Assembly (NCBI RefSeq): GCF_003076275.1 | Contig: NZ_CP029064.1 | Coordinates: 1,250,501-1,314,500, forward strand | Origin: Microbulbifer sp. A4B17 | Lineage (GTDB): Bacteria; Pseudomonadota; Gammaproteobacteria; Pseudomonadales; Cellvibrionaceae | DNA length: 64,000 nt | Reading direction: 5' to 3' | In this document: positions 43,154 through 62,313 of the stretch, one piece after another | Layout: each line of letters starts with the position of its first letter | How positions within the stretch are numbered: the stretch's first letter is position 1 | Notes under the pieces: model-generated | Databases searched by the model: none | Seen by the model: only the letters and a program-made list of their open reading frames with translations | What the model was told of the DNA's origin: nothing | Program-made: the position numbers and the translations under genes

Positions 43154-43727
43154 TAACAGACAACGAACAGAAGTACCGTATAAAGCTTAGCTTGGAGGCG
43201 AGGTGGCCAAGGACAAAGAAGCTATGTGATCTAATGAATAGAGTAAATAATACAGTTGTGTAGTGAAAGTTTACGTTCTTATCTGGGGAGATCAGGTTAG
43301 CTTGCAGCTGTGAAGCTGTCAGCGTGGCCGCTGACTCAAAAGTAGGCCCAACCCGCTAGCCTTCATAGCGTGGATAGAAAAAAATGGCGGGATACAGCTG
43401 TGCCTTGGTCAGTAATGGCCAAGGTTATTAAATGGAAGTCAGCCGACGGCATAGGCATAGTAGCCTAATGTCAAGATTAATACTTTGGATATGATGAAGG
43501 CCTGAACCCAAACTCCATGAATTAAAAGACAGGATTAGCCTATAGATATATTTCCAGTCAGCTATAAAGTTGAGGTAGCGTATTGCCAAGACTCTCGACG
43601 CAAATGAAAACCTGCTCGCCACTATTGTTGAGTAGAGGTTCATTACGGATAGGGCACGGCCCATTGCGGGTCCCACACGATAGGTGGTATGGGAGCGACA
43701 ACTGGAAACTATCAGCTACCCGACTTC
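43154..43727 (+). mobile_element. Group II intron, 5'-truncated ORF-less copy
   Basis: About 570 bp match the full-length copy at 60818-61538 from domain I onward: GCTTGGAGGCGAGGTGGCCAAGGACA, then CAGCGTGGCCGCTGACTC, GTCAGTAATGG, GATGAAGGCCTGAACCCAAA and the domain V/VI end. The first ~190 bases are missing, probably cut by the IS110 insertion. The 3' end reads GCTACCCGAC and forms the stop codon of the minus-strand gene at 43716. Domain V carries several changes, so splicing is doubtful. Confidence 0.75.
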
Positions 43728-44708: not shown

Positions 44709-45067
44709 GTACGCCCAGCATGGGCGTGGACTAATGGGGTGAAAGTCCCCTGTAGGAGGATCACCATTTAATGGGTTCCATTAAATGCTAACTACTAGCC
44801 AATGGCAACTGCAACATCGTGAGGCCTTGTGGGGAGGAAGCCGCTGGCAAAACTGCGGGCTGACGAACAGAAACATCCTATAAGGATTAGCTTGGAGACG
44901 AGGTGGTCAAGGACAACGAAGCCGGGTGATCTTACGGGTAGAGTAAATGATGCAGTTGTGTAGTGAAAGTTCACGCTCTTATCTGAGAAGATCTGGTTAG
45001 CTTGCTGCTGTGAAGTTTTCAGTGTGGCCGCTGACTCAAAAGTAGGTCCAATCCGCTAGTTACCGAT
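44709..45067 (+). mobile_element. Group II intron, internally deleted derivative
   Basis: The 5' end GTACGCCCAGCATGGGCG and domain I (GGGGTGAAAGTCCCCTGTAG) are well kept up to CCGCTAG; then the sequence jumps to the last bases of the intron (TACCGAT). Domains II-VI are thus missing. It is inserted into an attC arm and oriented opposite to the cassettes. A REP-type transposase fragment follows at once. Confidence 0.75.
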
Positions 45068-50763: not shown

Positions 50764-51148
50764 GACATGTTATGAACAATGCGGTGAAAGCCCCCAGTAG
50801 GAAGATCACCGTTTAATGACCTCTAACTACCAGCGAATAGCAATTGCAATACTATAAGGTTTTGTGGGGAGGAAGCCGCGAGCCAAACTATGAGTTGGCG
50901 AACAGAAACATCCTATAAGGCGTAGTCAGGAGGCCAGGGGCGCCGGAGCCACGTGATCTAATGGATAGGGTTAATGATGCAGCTGATTTGTGAACTTTTA
51001 TACTCTTATCTTGGGGAATATGTGTAATTTGTTTCAGTGATTCCGCCAGCGTGGCTACTGGCTGGTAAGTAGGTCCAACCGGTTAGCATTCATGACCCGC
51101 ATGATGGGTGGTGTGGGGCCGGTAGCTAAAAACTACCGGCTACTCGAT
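50764..51148 (+). mobile_element. Group II intron, internally deleted derivative
   Basis: The 5' end is degraded (GACATGTTATGAACAATGCGGTGAAAG), domain I is recognisable (GAAGCCGCGAGCCAAACTATGAGTTGGCGAACAG), and GGTTAGCATTCAT jumps straight to the 3' half of domain V (GACCCGCATGATGGGTGGTGTGGG) and domain VI (CCGGTAGC...GCTACTCGAT). It abuts the cassette gene ending at 51153. Confidence 0.8.
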
Positions 51149-53502: not shown

Positions 53503-53847
53503 GTACGCCCAGCATGAGCGTGAACTACTGGGGTGAAAGTCCCCTGCAGGAGGATCACCATTTAATGGGTCCATTAAATGCTAACTACTAGCGAATGGCA
53601 ACTGCAATACTGCGAGGTCTTGTGGGGAGGACGCCGCTAGCAAACTACGAGCTGATGAACAGAAACATCATATAAGGCATAGCCTGGAGGTGAGGTGGCC
53701 AAGGATACCGCAGCTATGTGGCTAATGGGCCGAGCTAATGATGTAGTCGTGTATTGAAAGATCACGTTCTTATCTGGAGAGGTCTGCTTAGCTTGCTGCT
53801 GTCTGCGTGACCTTGAAATCATATAGGGCCCAACCCGCTAGCCCGAT
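53503..53847 (+). mobile_element. Group II intron, internally deleted derivative
   Basis: It begins GTACGCCCAGCATGAGCG, keeps domain I up to AACCCGCTAG, then jumps to CCCGAT, the 3' terminus. The breakpoint matches the copy at 44709-45067 almost exactly, and the same RAYT-like sequence follows. Confidence 0.75.
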
Positions 53848-55621: not shown

Positions 55622-55702
55622 CTTAATGCCCGATTCAATGGGGGAAGGTTTCGAGTCCGGTGGAGGCTACAGGCAGGAACGAAATGCAGCCGCTTGTTAG
55701 GC
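55622..55702 (-). other. attC site with canonical core
   Basis: Minus strand: GCCTAAC(R'')-AAGCGGCTGCATTTCGTTCCTGCC ... AATCGGGCATTAAG. R'' is canonical and R' partly degenerate. The site lies upstream of the HNH operon. Confidence 0.85.
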
Positions 55703-58777: not shown

Positions 58778-58896
58778 CACCTAAAGCCGCGCTCAGGGGC
58801 GACTTAGTTTATGTGCTTTTTGCGCGAAAGTGGGAGCGTAGCGAGCGCGCAAAAAGTGCGCAAAGTAAGCTGTTCCCTTGCAGCGCTTTGTTATAC
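58778..58896 (-). other. attC site (long)
   Basis: Minus strand: GTATAAC-AAAGCGCTGC ... GAGCGCGGCTTTAGGTG. Strong internal pairing (TTTTTGCGCGC/GCGCAAAAA). The next gene's stop codon lies in R''. R' is degenerate (CTTTAGGTG). Confidence 0.85.
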
Positions 58897-59742
58897 GATT
58901 TTTCCGTGGCACTCTTTAAATCTCCTGCCACTACCACAGTGACACGGGGAGTTTCTCGGCATGTTTTCAGGTGGAGTCAGATCAATTTCATCCAGCATGG
59001 AAAGTAGTTCTTCAGCAGAAACTGCCTCACCAATCATGACTTGAGTTAAACTCCGCATATGCACCAGCAGCTCTGCCACTATCTGTGATTCGACGAAGCT
59101 TTTTGTTTCACCGTTGCTGCCAGTTGCATTAAACATTACTCCGCTACTATTTTGCTCCAAAGCATCAATTGCGGATTGGTGATAATGGCTAATAGGGGCA
59201 TGCTTGCTTACGACAATGCCAATAATTTTATTGTCTGAAGCCCTGAATAGGGCACCACCAGAATTTCCTGAGTTAAATGCCCCATTAACTATCAGATGTT
59301 TTTTTATTCCGTTAGTCGTTTTGTGAGAGGCAAAACCCGCCAAATAACCAACAGATAGCAATGGAGCTGGCCCATTATACCCAAGTGGGTAGCCCCAAGT
59401 TGTCACGGATTCACCGACATTGAGGCTAACATCCCTAGCGATGGCCAACCCCCCAGGCTGCGCGATAGATGGCCTTAAAATTGCTAAATCACGATCAGCG
59501 TCTATCCAAAATTGGGAAACCCGAATTTGTTCTCCAAAAGCAGATACCGCAATTATCTGGCTTTCTATGCAACCTCTTACGACGTGTTCATTGGTTACAA
59601 TAAGGCCGTTATCCAACAAAAAACCAGACCCCTTTGAGCCAGTGGCAGGGCAAACAATCATATAGACGGAATTCACTGAAGAGCGACCGATCTCACCTAC
59701 AGCATCCAAAGTCCATTGTGTTGATATCGGTATATCGTTCAA
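58891..59742 (-). CDS. Cassette gene, trypsin-like serine protease with SEC-C motif
   Basis: A 283-residue cytosolic-looking protease (no signal peptide). The catalytic triad is visible: His in VTNEHVVRG (about 53), Asp in DADRDLAILR (about 85), Ser in GNSGGALF (about 161). A helical linker follows, and the C terminus is a SEC-C zinc motif (SPCHCGSGRRFKECHG), known from SecA and many other proteins. TTG start at 59742 with GGAG upstream. A protease plus SEC-C, with no signal peptide, is an unusual cassette cargo; it may cut a specific host or phage protein. Confidence 0.85.
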   Translation of the reverse strand: MNDIPISTQWTLDAVGEIGRSSVNSVYMIVCPATGSKGSGFLLDNGLIVTNEHVVRGCIESQIIAVSAFGEQIRVSQFWIDADRDLAILRPSIAQPGGLAIARDVSLNVGESVTTWGYPLGYNGPAPLLSVGYLAGFASHKTTNGIKKHLIVNGAFNSGNSGGALFRASDNKIIGIVVSKHAPISHYHQSAIDALEQNSSGVMFNATGSNGETKSFVESQIVAELLVHMRSLTQVMIGEAVSAEELLSMLDEIDLTPPENMPRNSPCHCGSGRRFKECHGKIV

Positions 59743-59759
59743 GCATTACTCCATTTCGT

Positions 59760-59844
59760 ATAACGCCCGCTTAAGCGGACTATAATGTGTAGCGAAGCGG
59801 AACTGAACCAACTGTTTTAGTTCCGTTTAAAGCGCTTGTTAGCT
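59760..59844 (-). other. attC site with canonical cores
   Basis: Minus strand: GCTAAC-AAGCGCTTTAAACGG ... CCGCTTAAGCGGGCGTTATACG. The arms AAGCG(C)/(G)CGCTT pair, and TTCCG/CGGAA pair in the core. Confidence 0.9.
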
Positions 59845-60734: not shown

Positions 60735-60817
60735 GTTAACGCCTACAGCACGGGCCGGAGCCGCAAAGCGGCGGAGGTCCAGCAAATACGTAGTATTTGC
60801 GATCGTGCCTGCACTTA
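60735..60817 (-). other. attC site split by the full-length group II intron
   Basis: Minus strand: GCCTAA (61539-61544, across the intron) then TAAGTGCAGGCACGATCG ... GCTGTAGGCGTTAAC. R' and R'' are near-canonical and the arms GTGCAGGCACG/CGTGCTGTAGGC pair. The intron lies exactly at R''. Confidence 0.85.
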
Positions 60818-61538
60818 GTACGCCCAGCATGGGCGTGAACTAATGGGGTGAAAGTCCCCTGTAGGAGGATCACCATTTAATGGATTCCATTAAATGCTAA
60901 CTACTAGCGAATGGCAACTGCAATGCCGCGAGGTCTTGTGGGGAGGAAGCCACTAGCAAAACTACGAGCTGACGAATAGAAACATCATATAAGGTTAGCC
61001 TGGAGGCGAGGTGGCCAAGGACACCGAAGCCATGTGATCTAACGGGTAGAGTAAATGATGCAGTTGTGTAGTGAAAGTTCACGTTCTTAGCTGGGGAGAT
61101 CTGTTTAGCTTGCTCCTGTGAAGCTGTCAGCGTGGCCGCTGACTCATAAGTAGGCCCACTCCGCTAGCCACCATCGCGGGGATCGACAAAAGTGGTGGAA
61201 CACAGCAGCGCCTCGGTCAGTAATGGTCAAGGTGATTAAACAGAAGTCAGCAGACGGCATAGTAGCCAAATGCCAAGATTAATACCTTGGACACGGTGAA
61301 GGCCTGAACCCAAAATCCATGAGTTAAAAGACAGGGCTAGCCTACCGATATGTTTCCAGTCGGATAAAGTTGAGGTAGCGCACTGCCATGATACTCAACT
61401 CAAATGAAGATTTGCTCGACACTGATTTTGTTACGTGATCGTTGGGTGGAAATTCATTACGGATAGGGAACCGCCCATTGCGGACCCGCATGATGGGTGG
61501 TGTGGGGGCCGGTAGCTAGAAACTACCGGCTACCCGAT
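60818..61538 (+). mobile_element. Group II intron, full-length, ORF-less, inserted in attC
   Basis: A 721-bp ribozyme. The 5' end GTACGCCC and GTGAAAGTCC begin domain I. Domain V (61470-61501) has 9-bp and 4-bp stems with a UG bulge and GACC loop, and a CGC-type catalytic triad with a G-U wobble. Domain VI (61504-61538) is a strong hairpin (GCCGGTAG/CTACCGGC) and ends in GAU. The flanks join as CACTTA-TTAGGC. No reverse transcriptase is encoded in domain IV, and none is found in the window, so mobility would need a protein from elsewhere. It runs opposite to the cassettes, as attC-targeting group IIC introns do. Confidence 0.85.
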
Positions 61539-61551
61539 TTAGGCGCAGAAT

Positions 61552-62313
61552 TTATTCCCAGTATTTAGAGTGTATGAAATTTCGCAGAGTGCTACTTTTT
61601 ATAGATATAATTTCTTTTTCACGCTCATACCACCCAACGAATATACCTGATAAACGGCACGCAAATCGAAGCTCATTTTCTGAATCTATACCTACAAGCT
61701 CAAGAACTGGACCACCGCTATTACCGCTAAAGCTGGGGGGTGTTACTCTCTTATTGTCGCTATCTACAGAATTTTTCTTACTGAAATGAAATACAAGAGG
61801 GTTTCGTATATGAGGTTTGGATTGATGATTTTTGACTGGCGCAGTAAAGCTTGTTCCTTGAATATATTTTTTAATCTTGTTGAGTCTTGGATTGATAATA
61901 TTCTTCTTTCCAGGGAAACCAATTAAAAAGTTTATCCCTGTTGATTCTGATTCAGTCCTATTGTTATCAATTGGTAAGGCTTTAATCTTCTCAATGCCAT
62001 TATTACTAAGCCAGTCAATGCTTAAATGGCTGACAGCTAAATCATCTTCTTCAGATATAGCAAAAGGCATCTTGTTTAGTGGTATAGAATGACTATTTAT
62101 GTTAACAATTAATAATTCTTCTGCATGCTCTTTTACAACATGAAGAGCGGTAACAAGGAAAAACTCACTCCTTTCCTGAACAATGAAACCAGTTCCAAGG
62201 AGCTGGGCAACTCCATTATGGTGAGGTTTTTCTGTATAAATAGGGACAAGAATATCACCCCACTTTTGTACCATTATATCTATATCACTTACGGAAGCTT
62301 TCACTTCTATCAT
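61552..62313 (-). CDS. Cassette gene, trypsin-like serine protease
   Basis: A 253-residue protease domain without a signal peptide. His in VTALHVV (about 58), Asp in SEEDDLAV (about 90) and Ser in SFSGNSGGPV (about 199) form the triad. It resembles stand-alone cytosolic trypsin-like proteins found in defence and effector systems. The stop codon lies 14 bp from the intron's right end, and the start follows an attC-like core. It shares the protease fold but little else with 58891-59742. Confidence 0.82.
   Translation of the reverse strand: MIEVKASVSDIDIMVQKWGDILVPIYTEKPHHNGVAQLLGTGFIVQERSEFFLVTALHVVKEHAEELLIVNINSHSIPLNKMPFAISEEDDLAVSHLSIDWLSNNGIEKIKALPIDNNRTESESTGINFLIGFPGKKNIINPRLNKIKKYIQGTSFTAPVKNHQSKPHIRNPLVFHFSKKNSVDSDNKRVTPPSFSGNSGGPVLELVGIDSENELRFACRLSGIFVGWYEREKEIISIKSSTLRNFIHSKYWE

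Follow-up and report, generated by a model that had tools for sequence, protein, structure and literature searches.

Group IIC-attC introns, comprising S.ma.I2 and its relatives, target the bottom strand of attC, where their usual insertion point within the R'' core is TTGT^T, and they lie opposite to the cassettes (PMC7923331, excerpts). ORF-less introns are known from Thermosynechococcus elongatus, in which there is one deletion within domain IV, mobilization takes place in trans and ORF-less copies outnumber those with a reverse transcriptase (RT) gene (PMC2882425, excerpts). C.te.I1 is a rare bacterial ORF-less intron from a genome with no related RT (PMC4424553, excerpts). In the literature searched, which lay mostly outside subscription journals and was represented by excerpts (PMC7923331, PMC8876359, PMC4424553, PMC8919778 and PMC2882425 among them), neither an ORF-less IIC-attC family nor intron-bounded cassettes were described.

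The DNA analysed here, referred to as the window, is a stretch of 64,000 nt from Microbulbifer sp. A4B17 (positions 1250501–1314500 of its 5.04-Mb single contig). An earlier note on the window had reported an ORF-less group II intron splitting an attC core. The interpretation favoured here, to which a probability of about 85 % is assigned, is that this element is a non-autonomous intron of IIC-attC type that lost its RT by deletion and has persisted, and that its same-strand copies serve as direct repeats at which cassettes are exchanged.

Identification and anatomy of the intron

Three Rfam group II intron models matched the window in order on the + strand, to which all window coordinates below refer unless otherwise indicated. 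The domain I–IV models RF02001 and RF01998 matched positions 60922–61085 (119.3 bits) and 61209–61304 (63.5 bits), respectively. The domain V/VI model, RF00029, scored 40.7 bits against a gathering threshold of 40 when the 161 bases of the end region were searched alone; at this intron it was absent from the scan of all 64 kb and, at E≤1, from a scan of 21 kb. Because the RF00029 match ends at 61538, the intron is taken to extend from 60818 to 61538 (GTACG...CCCGAT, 721 nt), and TTAGGC opens the 3' exon. The coordinates given in the earlier note were exact, and domain V, the non-recognition of which by covariance models it had named as a refutation, was recognized, albeit narrowly. That the element is a repeat of another kind, such as a non-coding cassette associated with attC, might be suggested by the failure of RF00029 in the large scans, but this is exceedingly improbable in view of the three group II models matched in order on one strand and the existence of RT-encoding relatives.

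Domain V (61469–61502) contains the CGC triad and an AY bulge, here AT, both read by eye from the alignment, and it is letter-for-letter identical to domain V of an RT-encoding intron from a plasmid (locus L080, described below). Domain VI occupies 61503–61538, with a candidate branch-point A at 61532. The final AT of the intron fits the AY expected at the 3' end, and the 5' end, GTACG, departs from GUGYG at the third position. The letters of the 5' end had been reported correctly in the earlier note, but they are not odd, as had been thought there: all five of the RT-encoding relatives that were aligned start GTACGCCC and so share GTACG. Use of GTACG as the mark of an aberrant intron was ruled out for this reason.

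No RT ORF is present. The only internal ORF found at a cut-off of 60 aa encodes 61 aa on the opposite strand, and in place of the class-C RT that domain IV would hold there are remnants only. Comparison with RT-encoding copies identified the start of the RT gene (ATG and 11 codons, 61388–61423) and its end (14 codons and a stop, 61422–61466), the latter out of frame with the former; the joint between them can be placed only to within one or two letters. It is apparent that the intron, though ORF-less now, was not so originally, since the start and the end of an RT gene remain on either side of a deletion, and that it is full-length apart from the RT body of domain IV. The ribozyme domains, as read from the sequence, look intact, and the intron may therefore still splice.

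The attC setting

The intron is inserted in the R'' core of the bottom strand of an attC site. The left arm of the interrupted site, from the R'-like GTTAACGCC to the intron, spans 60735–60817 and ends in the putative IBS1, which is CTTA in this copy (60814–60817) and (C/T)TTG in the family; the right piece of the R'' core, TTAGGC, forms the start of the 3' exon (61539–61544). That an attC core had been split was borne out in that the rejoined flanks, CTTA^TTAGGC, correspond to the (C/T)TTG^TTA of 79 copies, and two uninterrupted attC-like sites in the window, at 59761–59844 (...GCGCTTGTTAGC) and 55624–55702 (...CCGCTTGTTAGGC), both read CTTGTTA. The intron is antisense to the cassettes, as proposed, with the adjoining cassette ORFs situated on the − strand. 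The ORF on the 3' exon side (61552–62313, −) has a weak trypsin-like match, below the curated cut-off, and no DNA match to it was found across the other 47 genomes of the genus. In a nearby cassette (58891–59742, −), a trypsin-like peptidase domain is accompanied by a SEC-C motif.

An R'-like motif was found in the flanks of 30 of 57 ORF-less copies, 11 of 24 mini-introns (see below), 5 of 11 RT-encoding copies and 2 of 7 odd copies, as compared with 426 of 4385 control windows, a moderate enrichment. Folding of the flanks of 12 copies from the same genome, in which the 3' side included the last three letters of the intron by mistake, gave z values from −3.2 to 1.3, to which no weight is accordingly given.

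Insertion point and EBS1

Where both ends are available (79 copies), the exons have the consensus (C/T)TTG^TTA. Positions −3 to −1 are T, T and G in 75, 78 and 74 of these copies, and positions +1 to +3 are T, T and A in 78, 78 and 73. The lineage is therefore inserted one nucleotide upstream of the usual point for attC introns (CTTG^TTA versus CTTGT^TA), and so differs from TTGT^T, which is a majority consensus rather than a strict definition. Both positions were observed in a single attC sequence family: it is empty in loci L289 and L299 (the latter from the genome of the window), holds an intron of this lineage (CTTG^) in L285 and holds one of the usual type (CTTGT^) in L302. An empty ortholog, in another species, of an occupied site was sought and none was found. 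In the mechanism envisaged, a Microbulbifer lineage of RT-encoding introns would invade attC hairpins through their bottom strand, at CTTG^TTA.

The putative EBS1, the position of which is inferred from relatives, is TAG in the window copy (60977–60979) and CAG in most others. The surrounding region reads GAACAGA in most copies of the lineage, as against GAACAAG (three) or GAACAAA (two) in five RT-encoding relatives. The putative EBS1–IBS1 pairing would comprise two Watson–Crick pairs and one G–U pair. The window copy combines TAG with CTTA, and most copies combine CAG with CTTG or TTTG; as this is a single case, and as TAG also occurs with CTTG (three copies), the match is no proof of pairing. 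The shift of the target by one nucleotide, together with the change in EBS1, nevertheless makes target choice by IIC introns testable.

Intron copies, RT genes and integrases in the genome

A blastn search of the genome with the window intron yielded 28 matches, itself counted, all on the + strand. They are clustered at approximately 1.125–1.166, 1.293–1.312 and 1.414–1.421 Mb, with one further match at 0.17 Mb. Within the window, the other copies are a decayed one at 43163–43723 (query 155–720), two that are truncated at the 3' end (44709–45059, query 1–350; 53503–53843, query 1–352) and one with an internal deletion joining query 341 to 666 (50773–51148). Mini-introns of approximately 470 nt were also observed in this genome (contig positions 1155924–1156396 and 1158192–1158673) and in six sister genomes, many of them in different flanks. 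The form lacking approximately query 336–555, the RF01998 region included, accounts for 20 of the 24 mini copies and occurs in seven genomes.

The earlier note had stated that the intron has no RT and had called for a search of the genome for a matching protein. That search gave four RVT_1 matches, two of which are the weaker ones, and no close RT: the best is 36 % identical to the RTs of interest. A closer enzyme exists in sister species. The genome also contains group II introns matched by RF01999 and RF00029 (L047 2401–4218 and L048 2471–4288), the RT genes of which are identical over the matched stretch; it is their RTs that show the 36 % identity.

An intact integron integrase gene is located at contig positions 3731803–3732744, approximately 2.3 Mb from the three intron clusters. 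A second (2120379–2121106) is broken, in two pieces in different frames with one internal stop. From the positions of these genes, at 3.73 and 2.12 Mb, there is none within the three clusters.

RT-encoding parents and wider relatives

At least a partial match to the intron was found in 37 of 293 genomes of the order and in 19 of 48 of the genus. Stretches were fetched on account of such matches, with some left unfetched, so that copy counts per genome are minima. RT-encoding copies were identified in three genomes: six in G319 (1917 nt, 99.95–100 % identical), four in G323 (1916–1918 nt) and one, lacking query 240–428, in G310. These copies consist of the window intron with an RT body of approximately 1.2 kb at query 605/606, and their two outer parts are 92.6–94.8 % identical to it.

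The RT of the parental copies in G319 scored 398 bits against TIGR04416 and is 51 % identical to the RT of L080; its putative assignment to class C follows from this likeness and from the target. L080 was among 365 records matched in a search of plasmids, which included RT-encoding introns beside integron cassettes; its intron lies next to aadA2 in a class-1-type cassette array. Judged by their place and likeness, these plasmid relatives are probably IIC-attC introns. Among phage records, none matched.

Other ORF-less introns, designated type A and approximately 700–755 nt in length, were found on the Photobacterium profundum plasmid pPBPR1 and in genomes G016, G007 and G001. The plasmid copy (strain SS9, L081 4001–4704) has no feature annotated underneath it in the feature table consulted. 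Domain IV is 75–87 % identical among the four and is not shared with the window intron; by this comparison, type A is a separate, unrelated loss of the RT. The copy in G007 has the same CTTG^TTA target and GAACAGA.

Two further arrangements were noted. In Pseudoalteromonas rhizosphaerae RA15 (L099), an ORF-less intron adjoins the 3' end of another intron head to tail, CCCGAT being immediately succeeded by GTACGCCC, with 609 nt between the two domain V motifs. A metagenome-assembled genome of the Lucinoma myriamae symbiont (L086 and 38 further JAHXIM contigs) accounted for 39 of the 80 loci listed with the domain V pattern (95 stretches). There the motif starts within 21 nt of a contig end in 35 of 39 cases, so that the assembly was probably interrupted by an intron present in very many copies.

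Origin of the ORF-less forms

The fetched stretches contained 141 intron pieces, of which 99 entered the flank tests, 79 the boundary count, 84 the mosaic test and 68 the tree. The ORF-less set comprised 57 copies from nine genomes; the alignment included 56 of these, one copy that spans a locus border being omitted. Fifty-six of the 57 lack 14 letters of the RT end and share one common joint. This joint is ATC, a triplet that flanks the deletion on both sides in the RT-encoding parent, in the 57th copy and in 43 of the 55 rows aligned besides that of the window copy; the remaining rows have point changes or a further small deletion. The window copy alone retains the 14 nt, and reads GGGTGGAAATTC there, like the parent in G310. 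A pattern spanning its joint, with up to three mismatches allowed, had one match in the 48 genomes of the genus, the window itself.

In the tree of 68 introns, for which the bootstrap had not settled, the window copy groups with the RT-encoding copy of G310 (support 98/95) on a branch of 0.017; the branches of the eight further ORF-less copies from its genome measure 0.075–0.13. No fewer than two changes between RT-encoding and ORF-less states are required by well-supported branches. The different joints and these branches indicate at least two losses of the RT within the lineage. On this evidence, the window copy is a separate, recent loss from an RT-encoding copy, and the young one among these losses. 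It was also considered as the source of the family in its own genome, and was ruled out by the other joint and by its place in the tree. The course of events envisaged is that internal deletion would remove the RT body and that ORF-less copies would persist, mostly as one old deletion family, the window copy having undergone its own recent deletion.

Covariation among the 56 aligned copies amounted to 67 double-change cells, as against 39 in 200 shuffles (SD 6, largest 56), but controls in which the pairing was slid gave 74–109, above the observed value. Given this weak covariation, most ORF-less copies look like decaying relics. It is conceivable, therefore, that the window copy is an RT-encoding intron from which the RT was deleted in situ, leaving a dead remnant without further role, and that the pattern of the arrays is simply one of decay. 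Its joint, unique among the genus genomes searched, its nearest relative in the tree, which is an RT-encoding copy, and the star-like divergence of most other copies with no clear covariation are all in keeping with this. Against it, 56 copies share one other joint at many flanks, and the Rfam scores of the window copy are close to those of RT-encoding copies (119 versus 126 and 131 bits for RF02001; 63.5 versus 65.2 for RF01998). The chances of this explanation are appreciable but somewhat below one half.

Instead of recombination, retrohoming with an RT acting in trans, the route known from Thermosynechococcus, may have spread the ORF-less family. The strict insertion point across many attC sites, the single deletion joint in 56 copies and the presence of young ORF-less copies in G323, an RT-encoding genome, all agree with such a route, which is considered somewhat probable. 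The deletion could, of course, equally have spread by recombination or conversion between introns. In G319, moreover, the six RT-encoding copies are near-identical and look recent, yet the ORF-less copies in that genome are only old ones, a poor fit to simple mobilization in trans. As the deletion of the window intron is present in a single copy, nothing shows movement after the loss of its RT; mobility in trans would call for a parent-type RT from outside, there being none close in its own genome. Retrohoming in trans and recombination are not mutually exclusive routes.

Cassette shuffling at the introns

The stretches between neighbouring introns were treated as units (100, median length 850 nt). 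Of 79 homologous unit pairs, which are not independent of one another, 40 show homology that extends to both edges (within 15 nt); in 19 it reaches the right edge but not the left, in 3 the left but not the right, and in 17 neither of the two. Among the 40 pairs kept edge to edge, the neighbours differ on both sides in 14, differ on one side and agree on the other in 10 and agree on both in none; the remaining 16 touch the end of an array, and in these the other side differs in 12 and agrees in 4. The class of the flanking intron at the compared edges agrees in 45 cases and differs in 22. The intactness of intron-bounded units in new order also tells against the suggestion that the arrays contain no more than decayed remnants.

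The introns themselves appear to be mosaic with respect to their flanks. In the mosaic test, from which RT-encoding copies and those with short flanks or missing ends were left out, the copy closest at the 5' end shares the left flank for 14 of 84 introns, as against 2 when closeness is assessed at the 3' end; a partner with the same left flank exists for 38. Conversely, the copy closest at the 3' end shares the right flank for 16 of 84, as against 6 when the 5' end is used; a partner with the same right flank exists for 36. In 32 pairs sharing the right flank only, similarity was raised in the last interval of the 3' end (0.867 versus 0.809), with 0.841 versus 0.853 at the 5' end. In 39 pairs sharing the left flank only, it was clearly above background just in the first 60 columns (0.886 versus 0.853), a signal that vanishes over the first 200 nt (0.865 versus 0.871). 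Since units are often kept edge to edge between species but reordered, and since the 5' and 3' parts of the introns track different flanks, the introns appear to be crossover points at which cassettes are shuffled.

A possible alternative is that an integron integrase reordered the cassettes and carried the introns along, and there is indeed an intact integrase gene in the genome, as well as attC-like sites. Integron integrases cut at R', within the unit. After such cuts an intron would retain the sequence close to it on both sides, and homology would be lost some tens of bases from the right edge of the unit, whereas 40 of the 79 pairs keep both edges and the flanks part inside the introns. 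The intact gene is, in addition, approximately 2.3 Mb from the three clusters. This explanation is considered unlikely. Crossovers inside introns would account for the mosaic flanks, which integrase action at R' does not explain.

The favoured interpretation, that RT-less introns persist as direct repeats, would thus have the many same-strand copies in attC sites exchange cassettes by homologous recombination, presumably of RecA type. A broader proposal is that the ORF-less introns of Microbulbifer occupy attC sites so densely as to have replaced attC as exchange points, that intron-bounded cassettes come, go and change order through homologous recombination between introns, free of integrase, and that the lineage with the shifted target seeded this system; it is offered tentatively, its prospects being put just short of even.

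If the introns are crossover points, no integrase is needed for cassette arrays to evolve, and a system of gene capture takes its shape from a retroelement, such that a selfish element may serve the rearrangement of arrays. The proposed shuffling role is the newest part of this account. The data also describe a large family of IIC-attC type that resides in cassette arrays. RT-encoding parents are present in some species but were not found in others, and close relatives can therefore be compared to test loss, persistence and action in trans.

Comparison with known systems

Like the IIC-attC introns, the family interrupts the R'' core on the bottom strand of attC and is oriented against the cassettes, with an upstream hairpin in place of IBS2 and with the CGC triad and AY bulge in domain V. 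It differs from them, as far as they are described in the excerpts of PMC7923331, in the lack of an RT, in insertion one nucleotide upstream, in the GAACAGA that most copies have in the EBS1 region and in the many copies per genome. The type A introns are likewise ORF-less, IIC-attC-like and approximately 700–755 nt long, and the G007 copy shares target and EBS1 region, but their domain IV is different and their RT was lost separately.

With the introns of T. elongatus (PMC2882425, excerpts) the family has in common the deletion in domain IV, the vestiges of the RT gene at its start and end and the excess of ORF-less over RT-encoding copies. It is distinguished by its lineage, its home in cassette arrays, the occurrence of two or more separate deletions and, for the genome of the window, the lack of any close RT. 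In this last respect it resembles C.te.I1, the genome of which likewise has no closely related RT (PMC4424553, excerpts); in contrast to C.te.I1, the Microbulbifer family is of IIC-attC type, is present in many copies and has an RT-encoding parent in sister species.
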